DNA of 64,000 nt from Desulfobacula toluolica Tol2 (GTDB lineage: Bacteria; Desulfobacterota; Desulfobacteria; Desulfobacterales; Desulfobacteraceae), in assembly GCF_000307105.1 (NCBI RefSeq), contig NC_018645.1, forward strand, positions 4,288,001 through 4,352,000. The letters are read 5' to 3'. Shown piece after piece: positions 9,402-62,560 of this stretch (its first letter is position 1; each line of letters begins with the position of its first letter). The translations under genes and the position numbers were made by a program. The notes under the pieces were generated by a model. It had not been told where the DNA came from and did no database searches. It saw only the letters and a program-made list of their open reading frames with translations.

Positions 9402-9498
9402 TATATAACTGCCACGGGCAGACTTGGTCTTTTATCCATGTTTGCCCACAACAAAGATTGAAAGTCTCTGTATGGATTTTTTAAGACTTTCATATAAA
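9402..9498 (+). repeat. Twin-hairpin repeat, copy A
   Basis: Member of the intergenic family described in the findings. The family's plus orientation runs from ATAACTGCC to CATATAAAAA. Stem 1 is GGGCAGAC against GTTTGCCC, stem 2 is TGAAAGTC against GACTTTCA. It fills most of the gap between the amidotransferase start and flippase 2. Confidence 0.88.
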
Positions 9499-9564
9499 AA
9501 GAACCGTGAACCTATTAGAATTAAATTCCTTTCATCATCTAAACATAAATTCAATTCACAAGCC

Positions 9565-11097
9565 CTAACCAGGAAGCATTTTTAATAATTTAAATAGAAA
9601 AATCCATTTTGAATTTCCATCTGATACTGTTTTAAAAATTTGTTTTTCATCAGGCCTGAAATAATTACAACCAAATTGAATAAAAAAAGCGATTGCAAAT
9701 ATCGAAACTCCGAAAAGAAGTTGATAAGTAATATTGGAAGGAATTATTTTGCTGAGGCTGTATATAAAAACAGAAATTGCCGCCCAAAACAGGCTTATTT
9801 TAATCATAAACAATTCCAATCCTTTAAAACTGGCTTCTTTTCTAACAAAATACCAAATAAAAATATTTTTGGATAAGGTCGCCGTTCCAGTTGCGAACAC
9901 CGCGCCCCATATCCCGAAAAACTTAATTAGAATCAAGTCTGCAACAATATTATACACGGCAAAAATCTTGCTGTAGAGAACGATATCTGCCTTTTCCATT
10001 AGCTGAGCAACTGTGGCAATAGGCAAGGAATTTAAAATGGAAAAAAAAAACATGACACATAGGATGGAAGAATACTCTACAAATTTATTATTTGAGATAA
10101 TGCTGCTAATATAGTCACCGAATATAAATAAAAAGCAACAACATGGGACTGCAAAAAACAAATTTATTTTTACAAGACTTTGAAAAAATTGCGTTAATTT
10201 ATCTTTCTGAGACAACGATGTTCCGATGGCAAAAAATGCCGGTTTAATAACGTCCCTCAGGTAGATTAATGGGAGCAATGATGATATTTGAAGATTGATT
10301 TGAACATAAAAGGAATAAGCCCCGACAGCAACAGGATTTAATAACATAACAATGATAAAATTGTCAAAATTAGCGCTTAAAACCCCCACACCGGTATTAT
10401 TAAAATTATAAAAAAGGGCGTATTTTCCAACTCTTTTTTTCTCATTGCTTGTAATAGAATCAATTGTTCCAGAAGAAAAAGGAATTTTATTATAATATAA
10501 TATTTGAAGCAAGGCAAAAGAAATTAGATAGGCAGACAGGTCGATTATAATTGCATGCCACAGATTTTTATCGTAAATAATGATAAATCCATATCCTATC
10601 GCCTTTATGATCGCAAACAAAAGAGCAATTGGTTTTGAATATTTATGAAGAAAATAAGATGACAAAACGATCTCAAGGAAATTGCGCTGTTGATGCAGAA
10701 CAATAATCAAAGTAAAAAGCATGAAATACGATTTATATTCTGTAATTTTTAAAAAAGGGGCGATTTGCTGCCATAACAATAAAATAAATCCAAGGATTGC
10801 AACATCCGCCACCATCCGAATAACACAGCTTATTTTGAATAAATTATGAGCAATCTTGAATTCTCCCCTATTATAATATTCAGGCATATATCGCAGCAGC
10901 GCATCTCCTATTCCCAAGGATAAAACTGTTCCAATTAGTCCGATGACCGAATAAAGAAGGTTGTAAACTCCGTAGTCAAATTCGGAAAGCGCCCTGACAA
11001 GCAAAACCGTTGCAATAAGCCCACAGCACTGACTTAATGTCTTAAATATTAAAGTATATTTAACAGCGCTGGTTGTTTTTTTAATTTTGTTATACAT
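9565..11097 (-). CDS. Wzx-type polysaccharide flippase, paralogue 2
   Basis: 510 residues from the ATG at 11097, or 511 from a TTG one codon earlier. Multi-spanning MOP-family lipid-linked oligosaccharide flippase, clearly paralogous to the protein at 3652-5187 with collinear motifs over its whole length (KYTLIFKTLSQCCGLIATVLL, EFKIAHNLF, LKITEYKSYFMLFTLII). The start codon overlaps the stop of the upstream kinase gene as TGATG, pointing to translational coupling. With the NRPS and kinase genes just upstream, this copy may serve a different substrate from paralogue 1; that is inference from order alone. Confidence 0.88.
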   Translation of the reverse strand: MYNKIKKTTSAVKYTLIFKTLSQCCGLIATVLLVRALSEFDYGVYNLLYSVIGLIGTVLSLGIGDALLRYMPEYYNRGEFKIAHNLFKISCVIRMVADVAILGFILLLWQQIAPFLKITEYKSYFMLFTLIIVLHQQRNFLEIVLSSYFLHKYSKPIALLFAIIKAIGYGFIIIYDKNLWHAIIIDLSAYLISFALLQILYYNKIPFSSGTIDSITSNEKKRVGKYALFYNFNNTGVGVLSANFDNFIIVMLLNPVAVGAYSFYVQINLQISSLLPLIYLRDVIKPAFFAIGTSLSQKDKLTQFFQSLVKINLFFAVPCCCFLFIFGDYISSIISNNKFVEYSSILCVMFFFSILNSLPIATVAQLMEKADIVLYSKIFAVYNIVADLILIKFFGIWGAVFATGTATLSKNIFIWYFVRKEASFKGLELFMIKISLFWAAISVFIYSLSKIIPSNITYQLLFGVSIFAIAFFIQFGCNYFRPDEKQIFKTVSDGNSKWIFLFKLLKMLPG

Positions 11098-11855
11098 CAA
11101 TTCGGCACACTGTAAGCTTTACATACTTGCGAAATGGAGTCATGCATATCTTTATCTCCACTGATACGATATACGCTTTTACCCTGATCTTCCAATGCGG
11201 TGCTTAACCGCTTCAAAACATTATGACCCGACTCAAATTCCTCCAGCAACTCTTTACTGTTGGTCTGGAATCCGAATGGCAACGGCCGAATTTGCAATCT
11301 CTGCATAAATCGTTCCACACAGATTTTGGGATCGGTCACAACCCAAAACAAATGATTTGAAATAGGGGCCAATTTTGCGTACCTGGTTATCAGTTCATCT
11401 GAAACCGTACTTTCCATGTATGCAAACAAGGTAAAACACCTCTGGGAAAAGGCTTCATCCATAATGACCAGATCAGAATCATCAAGATATTGAGAAATCA
11501 GATGTACTTCTGAAAAAGTTCTTACAATTGTATTCCATATGGATTCTATCAGCAGTTTCGGCAAATTTGACCCTGCGAGCGCTTTTGAAATCAAAGCAAT
11601 CAATTCCAGGTGACGGGAAGAAAAGGTAACAAATTCCGGCAAGATGTATCGTTCCCCCATAAACGGCAACCATATCCGGGAAGGCAAAAGTTTCACCATA
11701 TTTTTAATACGCCCGTCATCCCGCTTTTTAATACATTGTATGATTGCTTCATTTCTATACAAACAATATCGTTGCAACAATTTTAAATGTTTATTTAATG
11801 CTGACGACAATGTCGTCTTACCTGATGCCGGCAGGCCTGCAAATTCTATGTACAT
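11097..11855 (-). CDS. P-loop nucleotide kinase-like protein
   Basis: 252 residues. The Walker A motif FAGLPASGKTTLSSAL at residues 4-20 and a Walker B-like segment LVIMDEAFSQRCF near 130 place it among P-loop kinases, with some resemblance to deoxynucleoside or thymidylate kinase-like proteins found in surface-polysaccharide loci. The C-terminal part (VERFMQRLQIRPLPFG) contains the arginines expected of a lid. Preceded by AAGGAG and 13 bp after the NRPS stop; it overlaps the start of flippase 2, so NRPS, kinase and flippase form one transcription unit. Substrate unknown. Confidence 0.65.
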   Translation of the reverse strand: MYIEFAGLPASGKTTLSSALNKHLKLLQRYCLYRNEAIIQCIKKRDDGRIKNMVKLLPSRIWLPFMGERYILPEFVTFSSRHLELIALISKALAGSNLPKLLIESIWNTIVRTFSEVHLISQYLDDSDLVIMDEAFSQRCFTLFAYMESTVSDELITRYAKLAPISNHLFWVVTDPKICVERFMQRLQIRPLPFGFQTNSKELLEEFESGHNVLKRLSTALEDQGKSVYRISGDKDMHDSISQVCKAYSVPN

Positions 11856-11868
11856 GCAAACTCCTTAA

Positions 11869-14800
11869 TCAATTATAGGCCTCTATTTCTCCGATTATTT
11901 TATTTATCTGTTCCGGCTTAAACCAATCTGAGTGGGTCGTCTTTACATCAATCTTTTTCACCTGGCCTTGGTGATATTTATGAAGCTGTGGAGCATAATC
12001 TTCTTCCCAATTACGAGAATAAAACAACAGCACATTGCCGTAATATGGGATCGGCATATAGGGATTTAATTCGCATGCCCTGTAATAAATGCTTTCCATT
12101 AATCTAAACTGTACTGATTCAGGAACAGGCTTTCCCATCAGGGTGTATAAGCGTTGCTGCAGCCCATCCAATGAAATGTAATAATCATAACACTTGGATA
12201 TAATTTTATTAAAGATATACTCATAATCAAATCGGCGTATTTTATGGAATTGCTTTTTTACAAAAGACAACCCCCTTCTATTCCAGTTTTTTTCAACGGC
12301 AGAGGGTTGCTTTTTCTCCCAATTTTCATCAATTATGACCAGCAACTCTATCTTTTTATTCATATTGGTCAATTGACAGGCAATTTCATGGGCGACAATG
12401 GTATTTTTGCATGATCCGATAATGATATAAGGCCCTGATGGAAAAGCTTTCAGGATATCATCAATACATTTTTGGGCCAGCTGCCAGATATCAAGCAATT
12501 GAGTGCCATTTTGTTCGGAATCATAAAAATGGATAAAAATAGGTGAATGATAAAAGGGATGTCCCTTAAGATCCACTTTTTTATATTTTTGAGCACTGGC
12601 TATGGAATGCCCAATTAAGATAACAGGAGATTTTTTCCCTTGTTTACTGATTATTCTTTGAGATCCGTGCAGGGAATCTTGAATCTTTTTTTCAACTATT
12701 TTTGCAAGTTGCCTTATTGTGGAAGCTTTAAAAACAGCAATTACCGGAATTGAAATATTGAATTTTTTTTCAAGGGCATTGACCAGTTTAATTGAATAAA
12801 GAGAGGAGCCGCCGATATCAAAAAAATTGTCATCCGGGCTTGAAACTTCATAGTTTAATATGCCTTCCCATATGGCTTTCAGCTCTTTTTCATATGGGCC
12901 ATCAAAAAAACCGACTTTTTTATGCTCAAAGGATATTGAATCGGATCGGGGTATTTCCAATGCATTGTAGTCAATTTTACCGGAAGACGTATAGGGAAGA
13001 AAATCGACTGTAATTAATAAAGACGGAACCATATATTCAGGGAGCTTGGATAAAAGCCACTGCTTGAATGCTTTTATAGAAAAATCAGGTTTGCTTTTTG
13101 GATCCAACATTAGAAACGCGGCTGTCTTGATGTTGCCGTCGCACTCTTTTGAAACAGCCACGGCACATTCTGAAACCGAAGGGTGCAGCAAAGCCGTCCT
13201 TTCAATTTCACCCGGCTCAACCCTGAATCCCCTTATTTTTATCTGGCGGTCAATTCTTCCATAAAAGAGGATACCCTCTCCAACGGGCATTTCCACCCTG
13301 TCACCGGTTCTAAAAAAAATTGTCTCTTTGTTGATGTCATTGAGTTTAACAAACGATTTGGCAGTAAGATCTTCACGGTTTAAATATCCTCTTGCCGTCT
13401 GGGTACCCCCTATGCAGAGTTCACCCATGCTTCCGGGTAAAGCCGGTTGTTGAAATTGATTTAATATGCATAAGCTGACATTGGGGAATGGAAGACCAAT
13501 GGATACTTTACCTTTTAATGCTCCAAACTCTGACGAAAGATCCGCCCAGGTTGCCGCAACTGTAGTTTCTGTAGGACCATAGGTGTTAAGCAACCTGACA
13601 TTGGAATTGACTTTGTTGTTCCATTTTTCGACTTTATCGGAATTTGCCTCGTCTCCTCCAATTATTATCAACTTTATATGTTCCGGCAGGATCAAGGTAT
13701 CAATCTCGTCGGCAAGCATATGCCAGTATGATGTAGGAAGATCAAGAACAGTAAGACTGTTATCCCTGCAAAAATCAATAAACTGAGAAGGTGTATGGAC
13801 AACATCTCTGGGTTTCATTACAAGGGTTGCACCTGAAAAGAAAGTAGGAAATATCTCTTCTGCTGATGCATCAAAACTGATGGATGCAAATTGAAGCACC
13901 CTGTCATCGGGTCTAATATCATAAATCTCGCTTGCAGATCGTGTAAAGGCAACCAAAGAACTATGCTCTACCATTACCCCTTTGGGTTTTCCTGTTGATC
14001 CCGACGTATATATGATATATGCCATATTTTCAGGGGTCAGATCTATTTTGGGATTGGCGCTACCCATGTTTTTTATTTCTGGCATCTCTTTATCAAGCAG
14101 AATAACCGCCGCACCCTTTGGGTCTATCCTATGTTCGTGGGTCTTTGTGGTGACAATAATCTCAGGAGCAGAATCATTGATTATATAATTTATTCTTTCA
14201 TCTGGATACCCTGGATCAAGCGGGACATATGCACATCCTGATTTTAATACTCCAAGGATAACCGCAATGAGATCTGCATTCTGCTCAAGGAGAAGAACTA
14301 CTTTTTTTTCAGCCATAGCCCCAAATTTTATTAGATAATGGGCAATTTGATTTGCATATCTGTTTAATTCATCATAGCTTTTACTGTTTTTATGGTCTGT
14401 TACTGCTGTTGTATCTTTGTTTAAGGATGCCTGTATCTCTACGAGATGGTGTATGCAGCTGTCAGGTCTGGTATGAATCTTGTTAGAGTTTAATTTCCGG
14501 GCAATTTTTTTCTTTTCAAGATCCGTTAATATGGACACATCCATGAGTCTTGGATCAACATTTTCAGAGAGTGATTCCAGAAAAGTAGTAAAATTACCCA
14601 ATACTTGTTTTATTATGGCAGGATCAAATTTTCTTCTGTCATACTCTATGGTGGCAGTGAGTTCATCAAGTCCACGGACTGTTAAAAACAAAGATGCGGG
14701 TGTTCTTTCAAACAAAGAGACATTGGAACAGGATATTTTTTCTTTGTAGCCTTCAAGTGCAGCATCAATGGAATGATAGTCATAAGCAAAAAAAATATCA

Positions 14801-17800
14801 AACAGGGGAAAACTTCCCTTAACCTGACTCCATGAATGAATATTTGAAAGGGAAGTATGTTCAAACTCTTTTATTTTGATCCATTCGTTTCTAATTTTGT
14901 GTAAAAATATTGACAGATTCTCTTCAGGATCTATCTGAACTCTTAAGGGAAGCGTATTGATATACAACCCGGTATCATTGGAACTGTTTTTCCTCCAACT
15001 CCTGACAGATCTTGTAGTTCCAAAGACAATATCCTTTTTTCCTGTATAATGGCTTAATAGCACCGCCCATGCCCCCATTAATAACGAGTTCATTGTGACG
15101 GCATTTTTTTCACAGATTTTTTTCAACACAGAAGTTTTGTCAAAGGGAATAAAGGTTTTTTGATTTCCCGTTGTTATGGTAATAGAATATTCTTGTCTTC
15201 TGTTTTCTGTTACAGATCTTTTTTGAATATTAAACGGAAGATCAATTGATTCTGTAAAACCGTTCAATTGTTTTTCCCAGAACGCTCTTGCCGATTCACT
15301 ATTTTGTTTCTTATTCAGCCATCCGATATAATTTTTAAATGATCCTGGCGGGGAAAGTTGTGTATTCGGATTATGGTATATTAAAAAAAGATCTTTTAAT
15401 ATGGAAACCATTGTTCTTCCATCGGCAATGGCATGGTGGAAGCTCCAGACACAGGTGTATTGATTTTCATCTGTTTTTAAAAGAGCTATTCTAAAAAGAG
15501 GTGGTTTTGAAAGAGCAAATCCAAGTCGTCTATCCGCTTGAAGAAATACTTCTATAAATTCTTCTGTTTCAGACTTGGAAGAACTGCTCCAATCATTGAT
15601 TTCAATACTTATTTCATCAATCGGTAAAATATGTTGCCGGGGCTGGTCTAAATTTTTCCAGACAAATCCAAGTCGCATAATTTCATGGTGTTGAATAATT
15701 TTTTGCCATGCTTTCTTAAACCGTTCAAGGTCAATATCCTGGTTAATATCAAACACAATCTGTTCTATATAAATACCGGCACCCTGAGTAGATCTCAAAG
15801 TTTCCATGAGCATCCCATGTTGCATTGGAGAAATGGGATAAGTGTTCATATTCAGGAGGGTGTTTATTTTTGATTCCGGCTGATCAATTGCATTGTCTAT
15901 AATTTTATTAAAATGTTTTGTTACCTGTTTTATCCTGTTTTCAGTAAAAAGATCTGTTCGGTATTCAAACCAGCCGGTTAAACCCGACTCACCCTCATAA
16001 AGTTCAAGGGTTATATCACAGTTTGCTTTCCCCGTATCAACATGTAGATAGTCAGTTTTGGTTTTATACAAATCAAGATGAGGAAAATCCATTGTCTGCA
16101 TCAGAAACATGGATTCAAAAACTTTTTCCCGCTGGCTTGTCTCTTGGCATAATCGATTGATTTTTTGAAAAGGAATATTTTTATATCTGAATATCTTTTC
16201 CAGATTTTTTTTAACATTGTCCAGAAAAAAGCTTAAACTATTATCAATATTGATGATAGTTCTTACCACAAGCGTATTCATTAAAAAACCGATTATTGGT
16301 TCTGTATCAACATTGTCCCTGGCTGCATATGCAATCCCGGTAATTTGATCATTCTGACCGGTCTCGGCAAAAAGAAGAATTTGAAAAAGAGCAAGAAGAA
16401 CAGTAAAAGAGGTTGTACGGTTTTCTATGGCAAGTTTTTTTATTTTATTATATGTGTCGGCATCAATCTTGACCGGGAAACACGCCCCGGTTAATTCCCG
16501 GGAAGATTTTTTACTGTTTTGAGGAAGATCTTTTAAATAAGAGGCAAAAAACGGTCTGGCTGTTTTCCAGTCATGATCAACTTCATAGATCCTGGCTAAA
16601 ATATAATCATGATATGAGACTTCAGGTGTTGATAATTTTAAAGATTCGCCTTTCATAAGGCAATTGTATATTTTGCCGAATTCCTGAGCAAACAACCCTG
16701 CAGACCATCCGTCAAAGATGATGTGGTGAAAAGTAAAACAGACTAAACAACTTGACTCTCCTGTAATTAACAGATCAGTTCTAAAGACAGGGCCTGTTTC
16801 AAGATTGAATTTTTCTTTGATTTTATCAAGAATCCATCGGTTCTCCAGATCATTGTTTGTAAGGCTATCCATTGGTTCAAAAGTATTTTCCGGTTTTACA
16901 CAGGAAATTACAGAAGTTGACACCTCATCACTGCAATGGTTAAGGATATTCTTTATATGATCAACTCGATAATAAAATGATTTACGGTTATCATCGTTCT
17001 CGTTACTAAAATCACCCGCTTGCTTTTGAATTGTAATATCATTTTGTAACAGAAATACGGATTGCAAAGCAATATGTCGTTCTTTTATTATTTCAATGGC
17101 TTGTTCAAAAAAATCATAGTTTAATTTGCCTGTAATTTTATAAACCAGGGGAATGTGATAAACAGATGTGCCAGGATTGATCTGCTCAAACATCCATATT
17201 AAATTTTGATCATCCAGAAGAGGCAGGCCGTCTTTTTTGTTGATTTTATCTTTATTGGACAACGCTTCCCCAAACAAATCTTTCTTTATTTTTTTGTTTG
17301 AATCACCCGTAATAAATCTTGAAAACGCTTTCAGTTGAGAATGCTCAAAAAGAGTGTTTATTTCAATATTTTTTAAGAAAAGCCTGTTTATTCTTGATAC
17401 TATTTTTACCCCGGAAATAGAGTCTCCACCGAGGAGAAGAAAATCATCAGTTCGATATATTGGACTGATACCTAAAAACATCGCCCATATCTCCGCAATT
17501 TTTTCTTCTGTTTTTGTTTGCGGTAATTCTTCTTTCTTTAGAATATTCAGATCTTTTTTTAACATAAGATTTTTCCTGTCTATTTTATCCTGAGAAGTCA
17601 GGGGCATTTTTTCCAAGGGAATAACAACCGATGGTATCATATATTTTGGCAGCTTACTTTTTAAAAAATTGATGAGTTGTTCCTGATCCAGATGAGAATC
17701 AATATAAGCAGTTAATATTTTTCTTTGTGCTTTGTTTTCCTTGAGAACAACTGCAGTTTGAGATATTCCGGGAAACTCCTTGATAACATTCTCAATCTCC

Positions 17801-19068
17801 CATGGTTCAATGCGAAATCCCCTGAGTTTAATCTGAAAATCCTTTCTGCCGCCAAACAGTATATCACCGGTTTTTAATCTGGTTCCAAGATCACCAGTCT
17901 TATATAAAAATCCAGGCAACTTATCTGAAAAAGAATTTTCAAGAAAATTCTTTGCGGATAGAGCATCTTCTCTCAAATACCCGTCAGCAACCTGGATTCC
18001 TGCAATATAAATTTCACCTTTTTCTCCATTTTTTACAGGATTTCCTGATTCATCAAGGAGATAGACTTCTAAATTCTTAACAGGCTTTCCAATGGGAGCA
18101 TTGCCTGGATTGTCCGAATAATCAGGTACCTCATATAATGTGGCACAAATTGTTGATTCGGCAGGTCCATATCCGTTAATGAGGCAAAGGCCTTTAGTAT
18201 TCCTTTTAAGGGCGCATAAAAGACTTTCCGGAATGGGTTCCACCCCTGTTAATATTCGTTTAAAGGAAATTGGATTTTCCAACTGCTTGTCTGCAAGATC
18301 CTTTATCATAAAAGGAGGAATGTATGAGCTTGTAATATTGTTTTCTTTGAGCCATTGGATAAATTTGTCAGCATCCGATCTGATCTGCTGATCCGGAATA
18401 AAAAGCGTTGCACCGGATAATAGAGCTGACCATATTTCATAAACAGAAACATCAAAATTCAAATTTGTCCATAAAGAACTTTTATCCTTAGTGTCAAGCG
18501 GGCTGCGGTGTTGAAAATCCTCGATAAGGTTCATAACAGCTTGATGTTTTACTGGTATGCCTTTTGGTTTGCCTGTAGAACCGGATGTATATATGACATA
18601 CGCTGTAAAATCAGGGTTAATTTCGTCTGACCCTTGAGATTTAACAATATTAAATTTCTCTTCTGATCTGTTTTTAATACCATCAGGGGAATCAAGCAGA
18701 GTGTCTAACACTAATACTTCAATATCTCTATTTTTGAAATTAGATTTATGAGAATCTAACGTAATAATTATATCTGCCTGCGAATGGTCAAGGATCTCCT
18801 CTGTTCGAGACGGGGGATCGTTGATATCCAGGGGAAGATACGCATAACCTGCTTTCAAGACCCCAAGCATCGAAACGATTGCTTCAATGCTTGAAGGCAG
18901 ATACAAGGCAATGATCATGCCGGAGAAAACCTGTTTTGTCTTCAGCAGAACAGCAAGACGGCCAGCAGCAAAATCAATTTCCCTGTAAGTAATTGATTTT
19001 TTATTGTGGACCACTGCTTTATTATCAGGATAGCATTTTACAATTGATGAAAAAATAGAGGGAATCAT
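11869..19068 (-). CDS. Nonribosomal peptide synthetase, A-T-C-C-A-T-TE
   Basis: 2399 residues. Domains in order: adenylation A1 (about 10-510; YVIYTSGSTGKPKG, A10 Lys near 495); carrier T1 (520-590, phosphopantetheine Ser550 in LGGDS); condensation C1 (615-1060, HHIIFDG at 781-787); condensation C2 (1075-1510, HHAIADG at 1211-1217); adenylation A2 (1535-2045, YIIYTSGSTGKPKG, A10 Lys near 2031); carrier T2 (2055-2130, Ser2089 in IGGSS); thioesterase (2145-2399). Starting with A-T implies no acyl starter, and the two carriers suggest a dipeptide or an iterated product. The two adjacent C domains are unusual. By alignment to the GrsA pocket, A2 carries Glu and Asp (DASAEE; VLDLP), hinting at a basic residue; this is tentative. 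The TE has GSCKN where GxSxG is expected. No MbtH-like or phosphopantetheinyl transferase gene is in the window. The ATG has only a weak ribosome binding site. Confidence 0.93.
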   Translation of the reverse strand: MIPSIFSSIVKCYPDNKAVVHNKKSITYREIDFAAGRLAVLLKTKQVFSGMIIALYLPSSIEAIVSMLGVLKAGYAYLPLDINDPPSRTEEILDHSQADIIITLDSHKSNFKNRDIEVLVLDTLLDSPDGIKNRSEEKFNIVKSQGSDEINPDFTAYVIYTSGSTGKPKGIPVKHQAVMNLIEDFQHRSPLDTKDKSSLWTNLNFDVSVYEIWSALLSGATLFIPDQQIRSDADKFIQWLKENNITSSYIPPFMIKDLADKQLENPISFKRILTGVEPIPESLLCALKRNTKGLCLINGYGPAESTICATLYEVPDYSDNPGNAPIGKPVKNLEVYLLDESGNPVKNGEKGEIYIAGIQVADGYLREDALSAKNFLENSFSDKLPGFLYKTGDLGTRLKTGDILFGGRKDFQIKLRGFRIEPWEIENVIKEFPGISQTAVVLKENKAQRKILTAYIDSHLDQEQLINFLKSKLPKYMIPSVVIPLEKMPLTSQDKIDRKNLMLKKDLNILKKEELPQTKTEEKIAEIWAMFLGISPIYRTDDFLLLGGDSISGVKIVSRINRLFLKNIEINTLFEHSQLKAFSRFITGDSNKKIKKDLFGEALSNKDKINKKDGLPLLDDQNLIWMFEQINPGTSVYHIPLVYKITGKLNYDFFEQAIEIIKERHIALQSVFLLQNDITIQKQAGDFSNENDDNRKSFYYRVDHIKNILNHCSDEVSTSVISCVKPENTFEPMDSLTNNDLENRWILDKIKEKFNLETGPVFRTDLLITGESSCLVCFTFHHIIFDGWSAGLFAQEFGKIYNCLMKGESLKLSTPEVSYHDYILARIYEVDHDWKTARPFFASYLKDLPQNSKKSSRELTGACFPVKIDADTYNKIKKLAIENRTTSFTVLLALFQILLFAETGQNDQITGIAYAARDNVDTEPIIGFLMNTLVVRTIINIDNSLSFFLDNVKKNLEKIFRYKNIPFQKINRLCQETSQREKVFESMFLMQTMDFPHLDLYKTKTDYLHVDTGKANCDITLELYEGESGLTGWFEYRTDLFTENRIKQVTKHFNKIIDNAIDQPESKINTLLNMNTYPISPMQHGMLMETLRSTQGAGIYIEQIVFDINQDIDLERFKKAWQKIIQHHEIMRLGFVWKNLDQPRQHILPIDEISIEINDWSSSSKSETEEFIEVFLQADRRLGFALSKPPLFRIALLKTDENQYTCVWSFHHAIADGRTMVSILKDLFLIYHNPNTQLSPPGSFKNYIGWLNKKQNSESARAFWEKQLNGFTESIDLPFNIQKRSVTENRRQEYSITITTGNQKTFIPFDKTSVLKKICEKNAVTMNSLLMGAWAVLLSHYTGKKDIVFGTTRSVRSWRKNSSNDTGLYINTLPLRVQIDPEENLSIFLHKIRNEWIKIKEFEHTSLSNIHSWSQVKGSFPLFDIFFAYDYHSIDAALEGYKEKISCSNVSLFERTPASLFLTVRGLDELTATIEYDRRKFDPAIIKQVLGNFTTFLESLSENVDPRLMDVSILTDLEKKKIARKLNSNKIHTRPDSCIHHLVEIQASLNKDTTAVTDHKNSKSYDELNRYANQIAHYLIKFGAMAEKKVVLLLEQNADLIAVILGVLKSGCAYVPLDPGYPDERINYIINDSAPEIIVTTKTHEHRIDPKGAAVILLDKEMPEIKNMGSANPKIDLTPENMAYIIYTSGSTGKPKGVMVEHSSLVAFTRSASEIYDIRPDDRVLQFASISFDASAEEIFPTFFSGATLVMKPRDVVHTPSQFIDFCRDNSLTVLDLPTSYWHMLADEIDTLILPEHIKLIIIGGDEANSDKVEKWNNKVNSNVRLLNTYGPTETTVAATWADLSSEFGALKGKVSIGLPFPNVSLCILNQFQQPALPGSMGELCIGGTQTARGYLNREDLTAKSFVKLNDINKETIFFRTGDRVEMPVGEGILFYGRIDRQIKIRGFRVEPGEIERTALLHPSVSECAVAVSKECDGNIKTAAFLMLDPKSKPDFSIKAFKQWLLSKLPEYMVPSLLITVDFLPYTSSGKIDYNALEIPRSDSISFEHKKVGFFDGPYEKELKAIWEGILNYEVSSPDDNFFDIGGSSLYSIKLVNALEKKFNISIPVIAVFKASTIRQLAKIVEKKIQDSLHGSQRIISKQGKKSPVILIGHSIASAQKYKKVDLKGHPFYHSPIFIHFYDSEQNGTQLLDIWQLAQKCIDDILKAFPSGPYIIIGSCKNTIVAHEIACQLTNMNKKIELLVIIDENWEKKQPSAVEKNWNRRGLSFVKKQFHKIRRFDYEYIFNKIISKCYDYYISLDGLQQRLYTLMGKPVPESVQFRLMESIYYRACELNPYMPIPYYGNVLLFYSRNWEEDYAPQLHKYHQGQVKKIDVKTTHSDWFKPEQINKIIGEIEAYN

Positions 19069-19100
19069 ATTATGAATGTCTATTGTTTTTTAAGATTTTT

Positions 19101-19197
19101 TTTTATAAGAAAGTCACGGCAAATCCAATCGTAACTTTCATGTTTTTTTGTGGCAAACCAAGGGGGAATACCAGGTTTGCCCATGGCAGTTATTAGA
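19101..19197 (-). repeat. Twin-hairpin repeat, copy B
   Basis: Minus-oriented copy just upstream of the NRPS gene. It keeps ATAACTGCC, the stem GGGCAAACC against GGTTTGCC, and TGAAAGTTAC paired with GTGACTTTCT, where the altered base can still pair as G-U. Confidence 0.85.
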
Positions 19198-19921
19198 AGA
19201 CTTTTGAATAATACTTAAAAATTGCAAGCTCGTTTGATCCTGTTGTATTTACAATGTTTTTTTATAAAACTCTGTGAGTGGAAAAATCATTTAAATACTG
19301 AATATAAAAAATATTTAAATTTCTCTTGCAACTTTTAGGTTTAATTCATCAGTGTGATGATATAACTCCGTCCTTTTGATTACAACAAAGTAATCAAGTC
19401 AACCATTTGATTATATTATTTAGAATTACTGTTTTTAAATATCCCTTTAATGACCAAAAGCAATCATATGTATAGTATATAAGCAAAAAACAATCAAGGC
19501 TCATATTGAATTTCAAAATGGTATACCACAGACAAAAGAATTATCTCTCTTGACAGACTGTTACGGAATGCAAAATTCAATAAAATCAAAACAATATATA
19601 GCTACACAAAGCACATCAATCTTCATATAATATAGTTTTATAAAATATTTTTTAGTTCTGTAACAGCCTGTCAACCTGATAAGACATGCACTCTTCTATT
19701 CGTTGAATCCATCTTCAGGACGAAAAAATATTGTGTCGACTAATTGCTCATTGCAATCTCAAGTAAGCTTTTACATACATAGAATACAAACAGAAGACAA
19801 TAAATTGACACTTGACAAAAGTTCATATAAATAGTTCCATTGTCACGGGAAAAATTAGATATTATAATGTCTCTCACCTTATGGTGGAAACCCAACTTCA
19901 GCAAATGGAGTAATTTTTAAT
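19198..19921. other. Long AT-rich intergenic region between divergent NRPS and sugar transferase genes
   Basis: About 720 bp with no credible ORF, separating divergent transcription units and therefore expected to hold promoters for both. It contains the 125-bp inverted-repeat element listed separately. No clear operator, tRNA or riboswitch was recognised. The plus-strand gene at 19922 has only a modest ribosome binding site. Confidence 0.6.
19550..19674. mobile_element. MITE-like 125-bp element with 15-bp terminal inverted repeats
   Basis: The left end TTGACAGACTGTTAC (19550-19564) and right end GTAACAGCCTGTCAA (19660-19674) are inverted repeats with one mismatch. They flank about 95 bp of AT-rich DNA without an ORF. 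No convincing target duplication is visible. This fits a miniature inverted-repeat element or a long hairpin; no related transposase is in the window. Confidence 0.5.
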
Positions 19922-33921: not shown

Positions 33922-35334
33922 ATGGCAGACAAAAAATCAAAAAAGATAAAAATTCCACGGGCAAAAATGCCAGAACAAGACCCGGATATCAGAAGACGAA
34001 ATTTTGAAGAAGTCCCCTTGGGACTTACCCCTGAAATGGCTATGGCCGAAGCCTCAAGATGTCTTCAATGCAAAAATCCAGCCTGCGTTGAAGGATGTCC
34101 GGTTTCCGTTCAAATACCCGAGTTTATCCAATTAATTGCAGAAAACAATTTTTCAGGCGCAGCAAAAAAATTATGGGAAAACAATGCACTTCCTGCTGTG
34201 TGCGGGCGTGTCTGTCCCCAGGAAGAACAATGTGAGGGCAGGTGTATTTTAGGTAAAAAAGGTTCTCCTGTTGCCATTGGATATCTTGAAAGATTTGCAG
34301 CCGACCATGAACGTAAAAACGGAACCGGAGCCCCCCCTGTTGTTGCCCAAAAAACAGGGAAAAAAGTGGCGGTTATTGGTTCCGGCCCCTCCGGCCTGAC
34401 GGTTGCCGGAGATCTTTTGACCAAAGGCCATGATGTCACTATTTTTGAAGCGTTTCACAAACCCGGCGGGGTATTGGTATATGGAATTCCTGAATTCAGG
34501 CTTCCAAAAGAAATTGTTGCATCGGAAGTGGCCACCCTTGAAAAAATGGGCGCAAACATTGAATGCAATACCGTGATAGGCGCTTCGGTCACCATTGATG
34601 AGCTGTTTGAAGAAGGGTATGACGCAGTCTATATTGGTGTGGGCGCAGGCCTGCCAAGATTCATGAACCTGCCTGGTGAAAACCTCATTGGTATTTATTC
34701 GGCAAATGAATACCTGACCCGGACCAACCTGATGAAAGGGTATCTCTTTCCCGAATATGACACGCCCACTGCCCGGGGAAAAAATGTTGTTGTTCTGGGT
34801 GCCGGCAATGTGGCCATGGATTCTGCGAGAACCGCCATGCGTCTTGGGGCGGACTCTGTAAAAGTTGTATATAGAAGATCAAGAGAAGAAATGCCGGCAA
34901 GAGAAGAAGAGCTTCACCATGCCGAAGAAGAAAAAATTGAATTTGTTCTCCTGACTAATCCCACTGAGTTTTTTGGAGATGAAAATGGGCGTCTGACCGG
35001 AATGGAATGCCTTAAAATGGAATTGGGAGAACCGGATGCATCAGGAAGAAGAAGGCCTATACCCGTTGAAGGATCAAACTTCAGGATTGACTGCGACCTT
35101 GTGGTTGTCTCTGTCGGTTCAAATGCCAATCCTCTGCTGACAAATTCCACACCTGATATTGCCTTGAACAAATGGGGTAATATCATAGGTGACCCTGTAA
35201 CCGGGAAAACATCAAAAAAAGGCGTTTGGGCAGGAGGGGACATTGTAACCGGAGCCGCAACAGTCATTCTTGCCATGGGTGCGGGACGGACCGCAGCCAA
35301 CTCAATACACGATTATCTGACACTGGGATGGTAA
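33922..35334 (+). CDS. nfnB: NfnB/SudA-type ferredoxin-NADP+ oxidoreductase large subunit (GltD-like)
   Basis: 470 residues. The N-terminal cysteine pattern CLQCKNPACVEGCP and CGRVCPQEEQCEGRC holds two 4Fe-4S clusters. FAD- and NADP-binding folds follow (VAVIGSGPSGLTVAGDL near 150, VVVLGAGNVAMDSARTAMR near 290) and the closing GAATVILAMGAGRTAANSI. Family members are often annotated as homotetrameric glutamate synthase, but the adjacent nfnA makes the bifurcating Nfn complex the better call. Followed by a hairpin terminator. Confidence 0.9.
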   Translation: MADKKSKKIKIPRAKMPEQDPDIRRRNFEEVPLGLTPEMAMAEASRCLQCKNPACVEGCPVSVQIPEFIQLIAENNFSGAAKKLWENNALPAVCGRVCPQEEQCEGRCILGKKGSPVAIGYLERFAADHERKNGTGAPPVVAQKTGKKVAVIGSGPSGLTVAGDLLTKGHDVTIFEAFHKPGGVLVYGIPEFRLPKEIVASEVATLEKMGANIECNTVIGASVTIDELFEEGYDAVYIGVGAGLPRFMNLPGENLIGIYSANEYLTRTNLMKGYLFPEYDTPTARGKNVVVLGAGNVAMDSARTAMRLGADSVKVVYRRSREEMPAREEELHHAEEEKIEFVLLTNPTEFFGDENGRLTGMECLKMELGEPDASGRRRPIPVEGSNFRIDCDLVVVSVGSNANPLLTNSTPDIALNKWGNIIGDPVTGKTSKKGVWAGGDIVTGAATVILAMGAGRTAANSIHDYLTLGW

Positions 35335-35433
35335 TGGGTAACAGGTGACGGATAAACAATAACGGAAACTTGTAACACAAAGGTAAAAATCCTGACCCTG
35401 AGGGCCAGGGTTTCAAAAGCGAAGTAAAATAAT

Positions 35434-35471
35434 AAGGTTGGCCATTGAAAAATTTTTCACTGACCAACCTT
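35434..35471. terminator. Bidirectional hairpin terminator between nfnB and cooT
   Basis: AAGGTTGGCCATTGAAAAA is followed directly by a near-perfect complement (two mismatches in 19), giving a 38-bp hairpin with A-rich and T-rich flanks. It lies between convergent genes and suits termination both ways. Confidence 0.7.
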
Positions 35472-35490
35472 AATTTTATATCCATTCTCT

Positions 35491-35584
35491 TTTTATATGA
35501 AAGTCTTCAAAAATCCAGACAGTGACTTTCATGTTTTGTTGTGGTCAAATCTGAGCGAAAGACCATGTCTGCCAGCGGCAGTTA
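35491..35584 (-). repeat. Twin-hairpin repeat, copy C
   Basis: Minus-oriented copy at the 3' end of cooT. The TAA inside its ATAACTGCC start is the cooT stop codon. Stem 2 (TGAAAGTC against GACTTTCA) is perfect. Confidence 0.9.
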
Positions 35585-35776
35585 TTGTTTAATATAAACC
35601 TTGTGGTCCACCAATGACAAAGAATGAACATGGCCTTTAATAAATTTTTGTTCGCCAAAGATAGAAACCAGGCGGATACCATCTTCATCCGGCTCAATCT
35701 TGTCAACCGCTTCCATTAACAATGTTTCATCAGATTCGCCGTCATTTCCAAGTAAATATGCATTTGCTTCACACAT
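35582..35776 (-). CDS. cooT: CooT-family small nickel-binding protein
   Basis: 64 residues beginning MCEANAYLL, the signature of CooT-family proteins whose Cys2 binds nickel; later conserved parts are IRLVSIFGEQKFIKGHV and VDHKVYIKQ. CooT is implicated in nickel delivery to carbon monoxide dehydrogenase. No CODH gene is in the window, so its client lies elsewhere or differs. It is paired with a DUF3842 gene upstream. Copies C and D of the twin-hairpin repeat flank it in the same orientation. Confidence 0.85.
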   Translation of the reverse strand: MCEANAYLLGNDGESDETLLMEAVDKIEPDEDGIRLVSIFGEQKFIKGHVHSLSLVDHKVYIKQ

Positions 35777-35799
35777 AACGCCATCACTCCTTGTATATT

Positions 35800-35893
35800 T
35801 TTTATATGAAAGTCTTTAAAAATTTAATCGTGACTTTCAGTTTTCGTTGTGGACAAACCAGGATATGATACCAGGTCTGCCCGTGGCATTTAT
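35800..35893 (-). repeat. Twin-hairpin repeat, copy D
   Basis: Minus-oriented copy between DUF3842 and cooT. The TAA in its ATAAATGCC start is the stop codon of the DUF3842 gene. Stem 1 uses GGGCAGACC against GGTTTGTCC, with G-U pairs. Confidence 0.9.
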
Positions 35894-36315
35894 AAAAAAG
35901 ATAAATGTTTATCCAACAATTCATCCACCAGTTGAGGCAGGGGCAGACCGCTTACCCCTACAATTTCCAGGTTTTCCTGGGTCAGAGGCAGAAGAATTTT
36001 TTTAGCATCGGCAGAACATATGGCTTCCGCCATCTCAGGGGTTACCTCGCCCATCATTGCCTGGGGCATGATAATTCCCACAGGCCCGATAATAGCATCT
36101 GCTTTCCTTACGGTCTGAACAATGGCATTACTGCCGGAAGCCCCTTTGTTTGCCCTTGCTTTCAGCATCTGGGCCGTGGCAATGGCGTTGGTTCCCAGAG
36201 CAAAGACCTCTATTCGTTCTTCAAACCGTTCTTTGAGTTTTTTAATAATTGCAGATCCAATGCCTCCCCCCTGGCCATCTATAACACAAATTTTTTTCTG
36301 GATATTCACTCCCAT
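35890..36315 (-). CDS. DUF3842 family protein
   Basis: 141 residues with a Gly-rich Rossmann-like start (KKICVIDGQGGGIGSAIIK), then FALGTNAIATAQMLKA and IIGPVGIIMPQAMMGEVTP. It matches the DUF3842 family, which has no established function; the opening resembles a nucleotide-binding loop. Its place directly upstream of cooT suggests a shared role in nickel or one-carbon enzyme maturation (inference from adjacency). No clear Shine-Dalgarno sequence precedes the ATG. Confidence 0.8.
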   Translation of the reverse strand: MGVNIQKKICVIDGQGGGIGSAIIKKLKERFEERIEVFALGTNAIATAQMLKARANKGASGSNAIVQTVRKADAIIGPVGIIMPQAMMGEVTPEMAEAICSADAKKILLPLTQENLEIVGVSGLPLPQLVDELLDKHLSFL

Positions 36316-39184: not shown

Positions 39185-39263
39185 GATTACATCCTTAAAA
39201 TATTGTCAACGCAAGAAACAGAAGACCATTCCACCGATTATATTTTTATACATGTAAATTTCA

Positions 39264-39360
39264 ATATAACTGCCATGGGCAGCCTTGGTATTTCAACTTG
39301 ATTTGCCCATAACAAAGATTGAAAGTCTCTGTGTGAATTTTTAAAGACTTTCATATAAAA
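39264..39360 (+). repeat. Twin-hairpin repeat, copy E
   Basis: Plus-oriented, near-consensus copy between the PhaC-like gene and a phasin gene, running from ATAACTGCCATGGGC to TTTCATATAAAA. Stem 2 (TGAAAGTC against GACTTTCA) is perfect. Confidence 0.9.
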
Positions 39361-39402
39361 AAAATGCCGACTAAAATATTTCAGCCGACATCTCTTTTAT
39401 TC

Positions 39403-41419: not shown

Positions 41420-41514
41420 GATGGGTTCGCCCACACAGCACAATGCGACATTTTGTTTGTTTGAACAATATTTTTTTGACTAACGGTCATGAAAGATCAA
41501 GCTTCCATGGCCGT

Positions 41515-41609
41515 TTTATATGAAAGTCGTCAAAAATTCAAAAAACTACTTTTATGCTTTATTGTGTGCAAACCAAAGTAAAATACCAAGCCTGCCCATA
41601 AAAGTTCTT
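41515..41609 (-). repeat. Twin-hairpin repeat, copy F
   Basis: Minus-oriented, more diverged copy. TATATGAAAGTC and the GGGCAG...TTTGC half remain, while the second arm of stem 2 has changed to CTTTTATG. Confidence 0.75.
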
Positions 41610-41792
41610 ACCTTCTTTCATTGAACAGCAATGATATTTCGTGTATTTACATTTCATGAAAATTTATCCAAACATACCAGATAAAATTCAACTCTCAAAA
41701 AAAACTTTTACAAAGACAACCCATGAACCATTTGTTGATGCTCTGCCAAAGCCTATCATTCAAGTGTACAATACAACACAAAAGTCATATTC

Positions 41793-41890
41793 AAACAACT
41801 GCCATGGACAAAACTGTTATTGCACTTTGTTTTGTCCACAACAAAGATTGAAAGTCACTGTTTAAATGTTTGAAGACTTTCATATAAAAA
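41793..41890 (+). repeat. Twin-hairpin repeat, copy G
   Basis: Plus-oriented copy. Stem 1 is changed on both sides to GGACAAAAC against GTTTTGTCC and still pairs perfectly over 9 bp. This is the clearest compensatory change in the family. Confidence 0.88.
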
Positions 41891-41919
41891 AAAAGATAGA
41901 GGTAAAACATTAAAAAACC

Positions 41920-43448: not shown

Positions 43449-43514
43449 TTGCTTTCCTCCTTAAATTTAAATGTTCATTTTCTGTTTCATATAATATAAA
43501 CTATTGAATTGTAT

Positions 43515-43598
43515 AAAAATCCTGCCAACCCCAATCATGACTTCCATTTTTTATTATGGCAATTCTTAACAAAAGACCACGTCTGTAATGGCAGTTCA
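43515..43598 (-). repeat. Twin-hairpin repeat, copy H (degenerate)
   Basis: Minus-oriented and decayed, in tandem with copy I. Recognisable parts are TGAACTGCC, GGTCTTTTG and GGAAGTCATGATTGG; both stems are damaged. Confidence 0.55.
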
Positions 43599-43687
43599 TA
43601 TACAAGTCTTCAAAAATTTTAACAGTGACTTTCATTCTTTGTTGTGGGCAAACCCATATAAAATAACAGGTCTGCCATGACAGTTAT
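43597..43687 (-). repeat. Twin-hairpin repeat, copy I
   Basis: Minus-oriented, well preserved. Its ATAACTG begins directly after the TGA stop of the PilZ gene. Head-to-tail with copy H. Confidence 0.85.
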
Positions 43688-44182
43688 TCAGATAACATTT
43701 CCGATCATAAATCTGTTAAGAGTTTTTTTTAAGGCTTTGCATGGCAATTTTGAAACAAAGGTAAAACAATTCAGGCACAGACACAAAGATTCATCGGTTT
43801 TTACGATCTCTTGTGTCGAGGAATTCGCACACAATTCACAACAAAGATGAGATTTTTCAACAGCTTCTTTTTTAACTATTTTTGCCTTACCAATCCTTTT
43901 CACACCAACCTTGTAACTGAAATCTGCATCTGTTTTGACACACCATATTACCTGGGCAGTACAAGCGTCATAGGGTTTAAGTGATTCAAAACCGGGAGAA
44001 GAATCCTTGATTTTGATAAAAAAATACTCCCCGTTTAAAAACATCTTATCTGATACAAAATTCATCCCATTCATACTAATATTATACAGCACGGCTTTAT
44101 GATACGAATCGTCAAGAGCTTTTGCATAAAGAATGGGTATATTTATATTTTTACGGACTTCAAAACGTCTGTTTCTTTCCAT
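43688..44182 (-). CDS. PilZ-domain protein with C-terminal cysteine cluster
   Basis: 164 residues from an ATG preceded by AGGAG; a longer frame from 44284 lacks a site. The PilZ domain spans 1-110, with the c-di-GMP motif arginines at the start (ERNRRFEVRKN) and the N-x-S-x-x-G part as NISMNGM. The last 50 residues hold cysteines in pairs (LCCELC...SLCLCLNC) that look like a zinc ribbon. It is probably a cytoplasmic c-di-GMP receptor; the target may be motility, polysaccharide or PHA regulation, none of which the sequence decides. A 64-bp conserved block lies upstream. Confidence 0.8.
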   Translation of the reverse strand: MERNRRFEVRKNINIPILYAKALDDSYHKAVLYNISMNGMNFVSDKMFLNGEYFFIKIKDSSPGFESLKPYDACTAQVIWCVKTDADFSYKVGVKRIGKAKIVKKEAVEKSHLCCELCANSSTQEIVKTDESLCLCLNCFTFVSKLPCKALKKTLNRFMIGNVI

Positions 44183-44442
44183 AAAAGTTTCTCCTACCCA
44201 GATAAAAAAGGGATAACCCAATGTCCAAATCGAAATCCCCAAACAGCTTTCCAAATATTTTCCGTTTCTAAGTTTAACCTGCATCTCAAAAAGTGTGAAT
44301 TCAAGTGGCTGATTCTATACTTTTTCCAGAACACTGTATCCGTGCGATATTCAATATTGATAGACTTTATTCATATTAAACTCAATTGTTGCAGGAAATG
44401 AACCAATATTTTAATTTAGTAACCTAACAAATTTTAAGTTCA

Positions 44443-46772: not shown

Positions 46773-46809
46773 CTTTAACCTCCTGACGATTTTTTAATAT
46801 CACAAACAA

Positions 46810-46868
46810 AATAACTTCTACGGCCAGACCAGACTGGATCTTTCGCCCTGATTTACCCACAAAAAAAA
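46810..46868 (+). repeat. Twin-hairpin repeat, copy J (remnant)
   Basis: ATAACTTCTACGGCCAGAC...GATTTACCCACAA resembles the first half of the plus-oriented repeat; stem 2 is missing. Weak but in the usual intergenic position, between phaC and phaE. Confidence 0.4.
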
Positions 46869-46953
46869 AGAAGATGGGCAAAAATACAAACAATTTTGTT
46901 CAAGCTATAAAATTTGAGATCCTTACTGTTCATTAAAAGATTGACAGCGTTGT

Positions 46954-57414: not shown

Positions 57415-57570
57415 CCGAGCGCTGTCTCCTTTTCTAAATTCGTAATTTTTATGTCCCATCCCTTATCATTGCCTCCTGTCAAGATCAACATGAAAAATCA
57501 TCTGGATTTATAATATTGAACAGTATCCATCCTAAAAATAATTTTACTTTGCGTACATCTTCATTTTTTA

Positions 57571-57666
57571 CAACTACTACGGGCAGACTTGGCCTTTCTC
57601 ATTGGTTTGCCCATAACAAAACATAAAAGTCGCTGTTTGAATTTTTAAAGGCTTTCATACATAAAA
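57571..57666 (+). repeat. Twin-hairpin repeat, copy K
   Basis: Plus-oriented copy in the region between the divergent SH3/anchor and archease genes. Stem 2 is altered to AAAAGTC against GGCTTTC, keeping a G-U pair. Confidence 0.85.
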
Positions 57667-57731
57667 ACCTTTAAAAGATTATTATATATGAACAGATAAA
57701 ATATGAAAAGTCCAAGATTATCAAACCGTTC

Positions 57732-58303: not shown

Positions 58304-58370
58304 ACACTCCTTTGCGCTGCGCAATCTTTAAGGCTTTGCTATCAAACCCGAACAAAGAAAAGAGACCTTC

Positions 58371-59804: not shown

Positions 59805-59903
59805 CTCTCTGGGATTTCATGACATGCCAAATCAAAAAAAAACATTTTCAATCCTGAATATAGTTATGTATAATCATATTCATACTGTTTTACTGCTTTT
59901 TTT

Positions 59904-59921
59904 ATGGCAGTTCTCTGCCAT
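59904..59921. repeat. Small hairpin upstream of fadD
   Basis: ATGGCAG-TTCT-CTGCCAT, a perfect 7-bp stem with a 4-nt loop in the rtcB-fadD gap. It might be a remnant of the GCCATGGCAG end of the twin-hairpin repeat or a weak terminator for rtcB. Confidence 0.4.
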
Positions 59922-59999
59922 GGCCTTTAGTATGAGGATTTGGTACAAACACGGACTTTATCCCCGGCAACACACTTTAAACAATGAGGAGACATAAAA

Positions 60000-61739: not shown

Positions 61740-62460
61740 TCTGATTGATCACCTCGCCTGCAATGGTGAGACCGAAAACTCCGGGAACCCAGGATACGGT
61801 TCCAATGGGGGGTCTTGACCGGCCGTGATCCTTTAGTGCATCAACAGCATCTTCAGGGCGAAAGGCTTGCTTGTTCAAAGGTTTTTCAATAGAATAAACC
61901 GCTCTTATCCCTTCATAAAGCCCCCGCCTGTGAAGGCGCTGCCTGACCACCCTTGCCAAAGGACAGACACAGGTTTCACTGATATCTCCGGTTTTTATCA
62001 TGGAGACATCGGTTCTTCCTCCGGCCCCCATGCTGGAAACCGCGGCAAGATCCATCTGTCTTGCTTCGACCAGCAGGTTTATCTTTGAATTAAGACCGTC
62101 TATGGCATCCACCACAACATCAATATCTTTGAATAACAGATCCTCAAGACTTTGGGCATTGACAAATGAACTGTGGATCTGAACACGGCAATGCGGATTA
62201 ATATCTTTTACCCGTTCACCGGCAATGACGGCTTTTTGTCTGCCAATAGTGGAATGCAATGCAAACAGCTGACGGTTGATATTTGTTGCATCCACCCTGT
62301 CAAAATCAATGAGATGCAAATTTCCAACCCCTGCACGGGCAAGGGCTTCGGTTGCAAACGACCCCACTGCCCCCAGGCCGAAAACCGCCACGGTTGACTG
62401 TTGTATCTTTTCCATTGCCAATGCCCCGAGAAGCTGTCGGGTTCGAGCAAACTGATCCAT
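61723..62460 (-). CDS. tcdA: tRNA threonylcarbamoyladenosine dehydratase (TcdA)
   Basis: 245 residues of the ThiF/E1 superfamily: nucleotide loop VAVFGLGAVGSFATEALARAG, DFDRVDATNINRQL, VVDAIDGLNSK and SSMGAGGRTD match TcdA/YgdL, which cyclises t6A37 in tRNAs to ct6A using ATP. A ThiF/MoeB role is less likely because no sulfur-carrier gene is adjacent. Ends inside the fadD coding region on the opposite strand. Confidence 0.88.
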   Translation of the reverse strand: MDQFARTRQLLGALAMEKIQQSTVAVFGLGAVGSFATEALARAGVGNLHLIDFDRVDATNINRQLFALHSTIGRQKAVIAGERVKDINPHCRVQIHSSFVNAQSLEDLLFKDIDVVVDAIDGLNSKINLLVEARQMDLAAVSSMGAGGRTDVSMIKTGDISETCVCPLARVVRQRLHRRGLYEGIRAVYSIEKPLNKQAFRPEDAVDALKDHGRSRPPIGTVSWVPGVFGLTIAGEVINQITQSS

Positions 62461-62493
62461 TATGTGTCCTTTTATTATTTGTCTTTTTTTCCC

Positions 62494-62560
62494 TGTAACT
62501 GCAATGGCAGACCGGTCATTTCACCCAAGGGGTTGTGTACAACAAGAAATGAATGTCAAA
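62494..62560 (+). repeat. Twin-hairpin repeat, copy M (remnant)
   Basis: GTAACTGCAATGGCAGAC and TGTACAACAAGAAATGAATGTC resemble the first two thirds of a plus-oriented copy; stem 2 is decayed. Lies between tcdA and tatD. Confidence 0.45.

Follow-up and report, generated by a model that had tools for sequence, protein, structure and literature searches.

What is the block of about 90 bp that recurs between the genes of Desulfobacula toluolica Tol2? About 12 copies were predicted from sequence alone in the window analysed here, a stretch of 64,000 nucleotides (positions 4288001-4352000 of NC_018645.1; the host genome, G000, is a single contig of 5,197,905 bp). The original prediction described a repeat with two separate stems, lying in both orientations and always between genes, and suggested either a structured RNA or a family like the repetitive extragenic palindromes (REP) and bacterial interspersed mosaic elements (BIME). 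We find that the element is almost certainly mobile DNA. It is probably a non-autonomous family that works like a REPIN or like the IS200/IS605 insertion sequences (IS), moved in trans, perhaps by an enzyme of the HUH type.

A repeat search, an alignment and a covariance model agree that the window holds 12 copies: nine strong ones, one decayed copy in tandem and two other decayed ones (Table 1). The repeat is thus present at every predicted position, with 46810 marginal. At the predicted position 43515 there is a decayed copy on the minus strand, which forms a tandem with 43597 and has no separate entry among the covariance-model matches. The nine strong copies score 93-120 bits; the model was built from 10 window copies, which match it by construction. 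Of nine copies tested for folding, three clearly exceed chance (z -3.8 to -4.5), and the signal in the other six is weak (z -0.7 to -2.2). When the model was run against the whole genome, as had been suggested, all 150 scored candidates (out of 7,799 first-look candidates) matched at E 2.5e-10 or better. Scaling up from 22 matches at E 0.004 in 400 kb of evenly spaced stretches (23 at E 0.1), we estimate about 285 copies per genome. The family is not a chance artefact.

At several of the sites examined, relatives lack the copy. The copy at 35800 is missing from all 11 relatives in which both flanks were found (19 loci were tried); the insert is 92 bp long and lies at TTTTTTAT|AA. Empty sites were also seen in 2/2 relatives at L152:10898, in 4/4 at L353:12458 and 11697, and in 1/1 at L353:8537 and 3039. 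Among the 15 sites examined, six had copy-lacking relatives with readable flanks (the edges are blurred at L353:11697), and nine were blurred or uninformative (L152:3376, 5547, 15132; L118:1753, 4581, 8190, 17115; L353:9202, 15845). In the alignments, which were inspected by reading and not with the covariance model, no relative had the element at the orthologous place.

The clearest evidence for mobility is a recently active family in the genome of a relative, G133. From the 95-nt class of this genome (of 134 matches) we chose 49 copies, from nine loci plus 40 further ones. All 49 are within five mismatches of one 95-nt sequence, and nine are identical to it; their flanks vary. The identity spans WAT|AAC to TATAAA; at the base just beyond it, 31 of the 49 copies have an A and the others vary. 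To the left, the consensus of the target is T (76%), Y (84%), N, N, A/T (100%), A (100%), T (92%), or TYNNWAT|AA; in G000, the left-flank target is WAT|. Because seven of the 49 copies are sited in copies of another repeat and share one flank, they are not independent choices of target. Direct repeats of 3-7 bp in the flanks of the 49 copies did not rise above shuffles; a 2-bp duplication of AA remains compatible with the site at 35800. Insertion thus splits the T from the AA of a site resembling TYNNWAT|AA, and no 3-7 bp of the target is duplicated.

The right end of the element, TTCATAT, itself fits the target TYNNWAT, which would explain both head-to-tail dimers and left flanks that read TCATAT. 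This flank precedes 16 of 115 copies from G000, and a copy of a second subfamily is visible upstream of at least seven of these; among other copies, 18 of 71 have the flank. In G133, about five of the 49 are followed directly by another element. Since the element starts with AA, its first bases re-form a T|AA stop codon upon insertion, and such insertions would be tolerated for this reason. (We also considered stop codons as a special target and rejected this: 9 of 90 extragenic copies lie exactly at the upstream gene's stop, as compared to 6.1% of extragenic WAT|AA sites that are TAA stops, p = 0.12.)

G133 also contains a second repeat, of about 260 bp (L378:1487-1747 and L381:1487-1746), with apparent terminal inverted repeats TTAGGCCCATGATC / GATTATGGGCCTTA. 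It recurs in the flanks of L468, L474, L489, L498, L500 and L503. The hairpin element occupies one fixed place in this repeat, where two element subfamilies occur, and a shorter relative of the repeat, at L381:70-280, has no hairpin element.

The element is about 89-93 bp long (95 nt for the G133 class), and its ends, WAT|AAC and TATAAA, were missed by the original prediction. Fixed boxes alternate with variable stems: WAT|AAC, a stem region, CCACAACRAA, a second stem region, and TTTCATATAAA. Covariation supports both of the predicted stems. In H1, GGGCAGAC pairs with GTTTGCCC. H2 has the base GAAAG..CTTTC and an inner part that is variable but compensated (GTC/GAC, TAC/GTA, GAA/TTC). The prediction overlooked a third stem, H0 (C-N-GCC-AYG-GGC-N'-G), which overlaps H1. 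Because H0 and H1 use one common middle strand, only one of them can form at a time.

Our stem statistics are from 46 copies from many genomes, which were hand-picked from 52 long-form copies and aligned by MAFFT without regard to structure; related copies are not independent. Across these copies, pairing is 93% for H0, 80% for H1 and 84% for H2. Columns 8 and 19, in H0, show all four Watson-Crick pairs (UA 18, GC 12, AU 9, CG 3, other 4; n = 46). The covariation scores of H0, H1 or H0+H2 were reached by none of 500 shuffles, and the same holds for the percentage paired and the number of cells changed on both sides; all three measures drop when the partner strand is slid. Among 265 H0 motifs in the sampled loci, N and N' match in 208, and G/A accounts for 33 of the 57 mismatches; 16 of the 265 motifs lack the linker box (14 were inspected). 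In one subfamily, whose left part is short (GGCCATGGCAGA..TCTGCC), N and N' are unpaired, so H0 is not universal. Left (H0/H1) and right (H2), the stems keep their complementarity across genera despite sequence change. Some copies in G000 are longer, at 118-122 nt, their H1 loop being about 17 bases larger (such as L166:4603-4723 and L129:6854-6974), and there are mosaics in which one hairpin is standard and the other alternative; the hairpins seem to combine as modules.

Conserved boxes, covarying stems, and an H0 and H1 that compete like a switch could also belong to a structured RNA (a regulator, a terminator or an mRNA stabiliser) that is kept by selection at each site. Selection on one RNA strand would make G-U pairs exceed A-C. 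At one pair of H1, 54 of 60 G000 copies have G-T, and over all genomes H1 has 28 G-T against 18 A-C. However, 13 of these 28 come from a single column pair, and the counts of G-T versus A-C are 4 versus 11 in H0, 12 versus 14 in H2, and 22 versus 28 at the 14 well-paired positions in G000 (from the 60 in-register copies of 115; the two outer H1 pairs vary with the subfamily). There is no general excess, which argues against a structured RNA.

To describe the gene context we used 92 copies in 864 kb of the genome's own sequence, with a simple custom gene caller; about half of the stretches were picked for holding copies. That the repeat always lies between genes is nearly right: 90 of the 92 copies are extragenic (67 clearly, and 23 that overlap the edge of a gene by at most 40 bp) and two are inside called genes. 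Both orientations do occur, as predicted. Among the 85 copies with both neighbours known, 51 are in gaps between tandem genes, 24 between divergent genes and 10 between convergent genes; gaps of at least 90 bp total 54.0 kb, 34.6 kb and 10.4 kb, respectively. In the tandem gaps, 32 copies read with the genes and 19 against, and we see no strong preference for context.

The family is typical of its lineage, as proposed. The window model matches 23 of 58 genomes at E 0.01 (with its own included, and with stricter filters): 15 of 26 in the genus, 7 of 9 in the rest of the family, and 1 of 23 in the rest of the order. The single weak matches in G020 and G033 (E 0.008-0.009) may be due to chance. 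A model built from the 46 diverse copies matches 30 of 192 genomes of the class at 1e-4, with 25 inside the family and 5 outside. The exact pattern of the two left boxes is found in at least 120 stretches from named genomes. Among the matches listed, all 80 titles are Desulfobacter, Desulfocicer, Desulfamplus, or metagenome-assembled genomes labelled Desulfobacteraceae, Desulfobacterales or Deltaproteobacteria. Viral contigs had no match to the box pattern. Hundreds of intergenic copies in several Desulfobacteraceae bear on annotation, on small-RNA calls and on genome evolution in this family.

How might the element move? We propose that an enzyme acting in trans recognises the folded hairpins and excises the element as a strand or a circle, with the junction TTTCATAT|AAC; the excised element would then be joined to a site that reads like its own junction. 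The likeliest type of enzyme would be a single-strand transposase of the HUH (Y1-like) kind that works at replication forks, and we give even weight to the mobiliser being of the HUH type or not. Insertions in genes would be removed by selection, and copies landing beside older copies would form head-to-tail dimers. On our reading of the base-pair counts, source copies would keep their complementarity while inserted copies decay freely, and no single copy need have a function.

Transposition of the IS200/IS605 type is strand-specific on single-stranded DNA (excerpt of PMC8266576) and targets the template of the lagging strand (excerpt of PMC6006769). In G000, a noisy GC skew, with several stretches of the wrong sign, places the origin at 4.77-4.80 Mb and the terminus at 2.30-2.33 Mb; for the strand counts they were set near 4.79 and 2.32 Mb. 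The strands of 206 copies are split +58/-62 in one replichore and +58/-28 in the other (p = 0.007, with gene orientation not in the model). Pooling G000 with G133 and G155, the odds ratio is 0.48 (p = 0.0017); the strand counts cover 82 of 134 matches in G133 and 68 of 150 in G155. A scan over origin and terminus positions peaked at 97 of 150 concordant copies, with the origin near 0.05-0.15 or 0.85 Mb. As the GC skew places the origin elsewhere, we set this peak aside and report the weaker figure. The weak bias is suggestive of single-strand transposition. It also suggests that the bottom strand would be on the lagging template, and on that strand GTGG sits 5' of H1, like the guides of REPs.

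Several observations weigh against our proposal. The strand bias is weak (120 of 206 copies are concordant in G000, p = 0.02); it is carried by the terminus half (p = 0.003) and is not seen in the origin half (p = 0.35). G133 (82 copies, p = 0.34) and G155 (68 copies, p = 0.19) lean the same way but are not significant alone, and the GC skew of G133 is weak and its replichores uncertain. The right boundary of the element is not base-exact, with 3-4 extra A at the 35800 site. Left and right hairpins that are unlike each other are unusual for IS200/IS605. The H0 pair count and pair-type count were reached by 500 and 487 of 500 shuffles (435 and 74 for H0+H2; 33 and 9 for H1); for H0 these two measures are weak because just one of its pairs varies on both sides. 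Finally, we found no mobiliser. Y1 genes are present in the match-free genomes G006, G014 and G025, and none was found in the element-rich G030 and G167, which are both incomplete genomes. The sole long Y1 gene of G000 (at 973888) has only a chance-level match within 1.5 kb (15.7 bits, E 1.2).

Across 58 genomes, the presence of Y1 genes has no visible relation to that of the element. The prediction had suggested looking for a linked REP-type Y1 transposase. In 60 Y1 loci with 1.5 kb of flank (30 of the 35 matches from one search and 30 of the 56 from another), no gene had copies at a shared place: nine of the loci, among them L085 and L099, which overlap, hold a copy at E 0.05 or better, at differing positions. 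Of seven similar IS copies in G155, we checked six, and three have an element nearby, at differing distances. Long, low-scoring Y1 open reading frames (ORFs) in G000, G027 and G133 were judged to be RAYT-like. Of 13 RAYT-like loci (frame of at least 200 aa, about 60 bits or less), only L090 has a match (31 bits, about 1.2 kb off, on one side only); at L171, where there are three RAYT-like genes, no copy reaches E 0.01. Counting against a lack of linkage, copies in Y1 loci from seven genomes are about three times as dense (8 at E 0.001 in 99.6 kb) as in evenly spaced stretches of G133 and G155 (11 at E 0.0015 in 480 kb). Because the positions are irregular and several of the loci are copies of one IS, we lean against taking this excess as linkage. 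At L085:1387-1719 there is a truncated remnant of an IS200-like transposase, with an element about 170 bp downstream that is flanked by CTTCCTC/GAGGAAG.

An autonomous version of the element might consist of a left and a right half that frame a gene. With profile HMMs for the halves, we found no such arrangement in about 1.26 Mb of G000, G027, G030 and G005 (about 1/6 of G000). This search gave 140 pairs, and a further 41 left and 19 right halves were orphans. Only at L155 do two orphans form a pair, 3.4 kb apart; its left half is weak, and it was read as chance. Clustering the proteins encoded within 500 bp of copies gave no cluster that we recognised as a transposase (the clusters are unannotated). 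With its dozens of near-identical copies, G133 is the natural place to seek the mobiliser.

A more novel reading, which we hold tentatively and as the less likely one, is that these elements are a separate class of minimal bacterial transposon. Such a transposon would be about 90 bp long, with alternative left hairpins H0 and H1 that share one strand. Its enzyme would be neither TnpAREP nor the IS200/IS605 TnpA, and it would have reached hundreds of copies per genome across a bacterial family. The exchange of H0 and H1 might then be a switch between a cleaved and a joined state.

One of the two options in the original prediction was a REP/BIME-like family. This stands insofar as the element seems to work like a REP or REPIN; actual membership is another matter. 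A true REPIN family moved by TnpAREP/RAYT would be consistent with the high copy number, the extragenic location, and the hairpins near both ends of a unit of about 90 bp, as well as with the RAYT-like ORFs and the strand bias. Its guide would be degenerate (GTGG just 5' of H1 on the bottom strand), and GTAG is degenerate in some REP families, and is GTGG in one, according to an excerpt of PMC3733652. However, REPINs are inverted pairs of like REPs, and the two ends of this element differ. Also, only one of the 13 RAYT-like loci has a copy nearby, and by eye the 46-copy alignment has no GTAG or CGTC tag at the foot of a hairpin, although GTGG leaves room for a degenerate guide. We think that membership is unlikely.

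Another reading is that a tyrosine or serine recombinase acts on the element, so that a circle with the junction CATAT|AAC would integrate at WAT|AA through short identity. This would account for the sharp junctions, the lack of a duplication, a target that resembles the element's own junction, and the exact dimers. However, no strand bias would be expected, and the sites of such recombinases are usually built around a single palindromic core, and not around two end hairpins that differ from each other. We consider this reading just as doubtful as membership in the REPs.

The prediction that this is not a normal miniature inverted-repeat transposable element (MITE) holds up. A MITE of a DDE-type IS would be non-autonomous, with many near-identical copies, and the terminal TTTTATAT/ATATAAAA of some copies resembles a short terminal inverted repeat. 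But the ends of recent copies are AATAAC and TATAAA, which are not inverted repeats. The T-rich left side is derived from the target at least at 35800, where the empty site already has TTTTTTAT, and it is not constant in recent G133 copies. Together with the lack of a 3-7 bp duplication in 49 recent copies and of halves that frame a gene in about 1.26 Mb (one weak, chance-like pair aside), this makes an ordinary MITE very improbable. Least credible of all is the structured RNA, given the base-pair counts, the use of either orientation, the sites that are empty in relatives, and the lack of an Rfam family (no match at the gathering threshold in the whole window, and for one copy searched at E up to 10, three rows with E 1.3-9.5, far below gathering scores).

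Table 1. Copies of the repeat in the window and parts of the best copy (window numbering)
Feature	Position	Strand	Score	Remark
Best copy	9400..9503	+	120.2 bits	
Target junction of best copy	T9406|A9407	+		inferred
H0 hairpin of best copy, CTGCC-ACG-GGCAG	9409-9421	+		
H1 arms of best copy	9416-9423 / 9440-9447	+		
Linker box of best copy, CCACAACAAAG	9446-9456	+		
H2 arms of best copy	9459-9466 / 9485-9492	+		
Right end of best copy, CATATAAAA	to 9499	+		
Copy	19097..19198	-	96.3 bits	
Copy	35487..35590	-	104.5 bits	left end contains the TAA stop of small gene 35582-35776
Copy	35796..35898	-		empty site in 11 relatives; left end re-forms the stop codon of gene 35890-36315
Copy	39261..39364	+	115.1 bits	
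Copy	41510..41613	-	93.5 bits	
Copy	41790..41893	+	113.3 bits	
Copy, unit 1 of head-to-tail dimer	43595..43692	-		left end adjoins the TGA stop of ORF 43688-44284
Decayed copy, unit 2 of dimer	43508..43603	-		junction TATAT|GAACTGCC
Badly decayed copy	46806..46909	+	24.2 bits, E 0.012	marginal
Copy	57565..57668	+	103 bits	
Decayed copy	62490..62594	+	37 bits, E 2e-5	

Elsewhere in the window, two ORFs of 511 aa each (3652-5187 and 9565-11100), which are 5,913 bp apart, are 70-79% identical over several stretches and are likely paralogues. There is also an ORF of 2,399 aa at 11869-19068. An AT-rich palindrome around AAGGTTGGCCA..TGACCAACCTT (35425-35480) lies after the gene at 33922-35334 and looks like a terminator.

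This is an abundant and recently active mobile family with a sharp and testable insertion rule, and it fits none of the named kinds that we tested. In the open literature on repeats in this lineage, as far as the available excerpts go and with the Tol2 genome paper not covered, there is no description of the element. It is most similar to REP/REPIN/BIME sequences with TnpAREP (RAYT), which also form hundreds of short extragenic hairpin copies, are presumably moved in trans, occur as dimers, and have stem subfamilies with compensatory changes. Unlike them, it has two unlike ends instead of inverted like REPs, long boxes that are conserved across genera, and no RAYT-like gene with copies on both sides. 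It also lacks the hallmark of REPs, the tetranucleotide GTAG (or CGTC) that marks their hairpin foot (excerpts of PMC8266576 and PMC3733652). The GTAG family in D. alkenivorans that is mentioned in an excerpt of PMC3733652 differs from it by this tag. How REPs spread is described as still to be elucidated (excerpt of PMC8266576).

Non-autonomous derivatives of IS200/IS605 (palindrome-associated transposable elements) also have a hairpin near each end, no terminal inverted repeat and no target duplication, and their insertion point lies 3' of a short preferred sequence similar to the right end. They would also carry a guide 5' of each hairpin that pairs with the cleavage site, and transfer one specific strand; on the second point, our element has the weak strand bias described above. 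In contrast, the left and right hairpins of our element differ; no parent IS with these ends was found at the Y1 loci or in the search for halves; and the six similar IS copies in G155 vary in whether and where an element is nearby. Correia/NEMIS and RUP are MITEs of about 100 bp with many intergenic copies, terminal inverted repeats and TA duplications. They are alike in size, copy number and intergenic location, but our element shows neither the inverted repeats nor the TA duplication. The BOX elements of pneumococci are modular and rich in hairpins, with no clear terminal inverted repeat, and their mobility is unexplained. Our element resembles them in these respects; its modules are stems set between fixed boxes.

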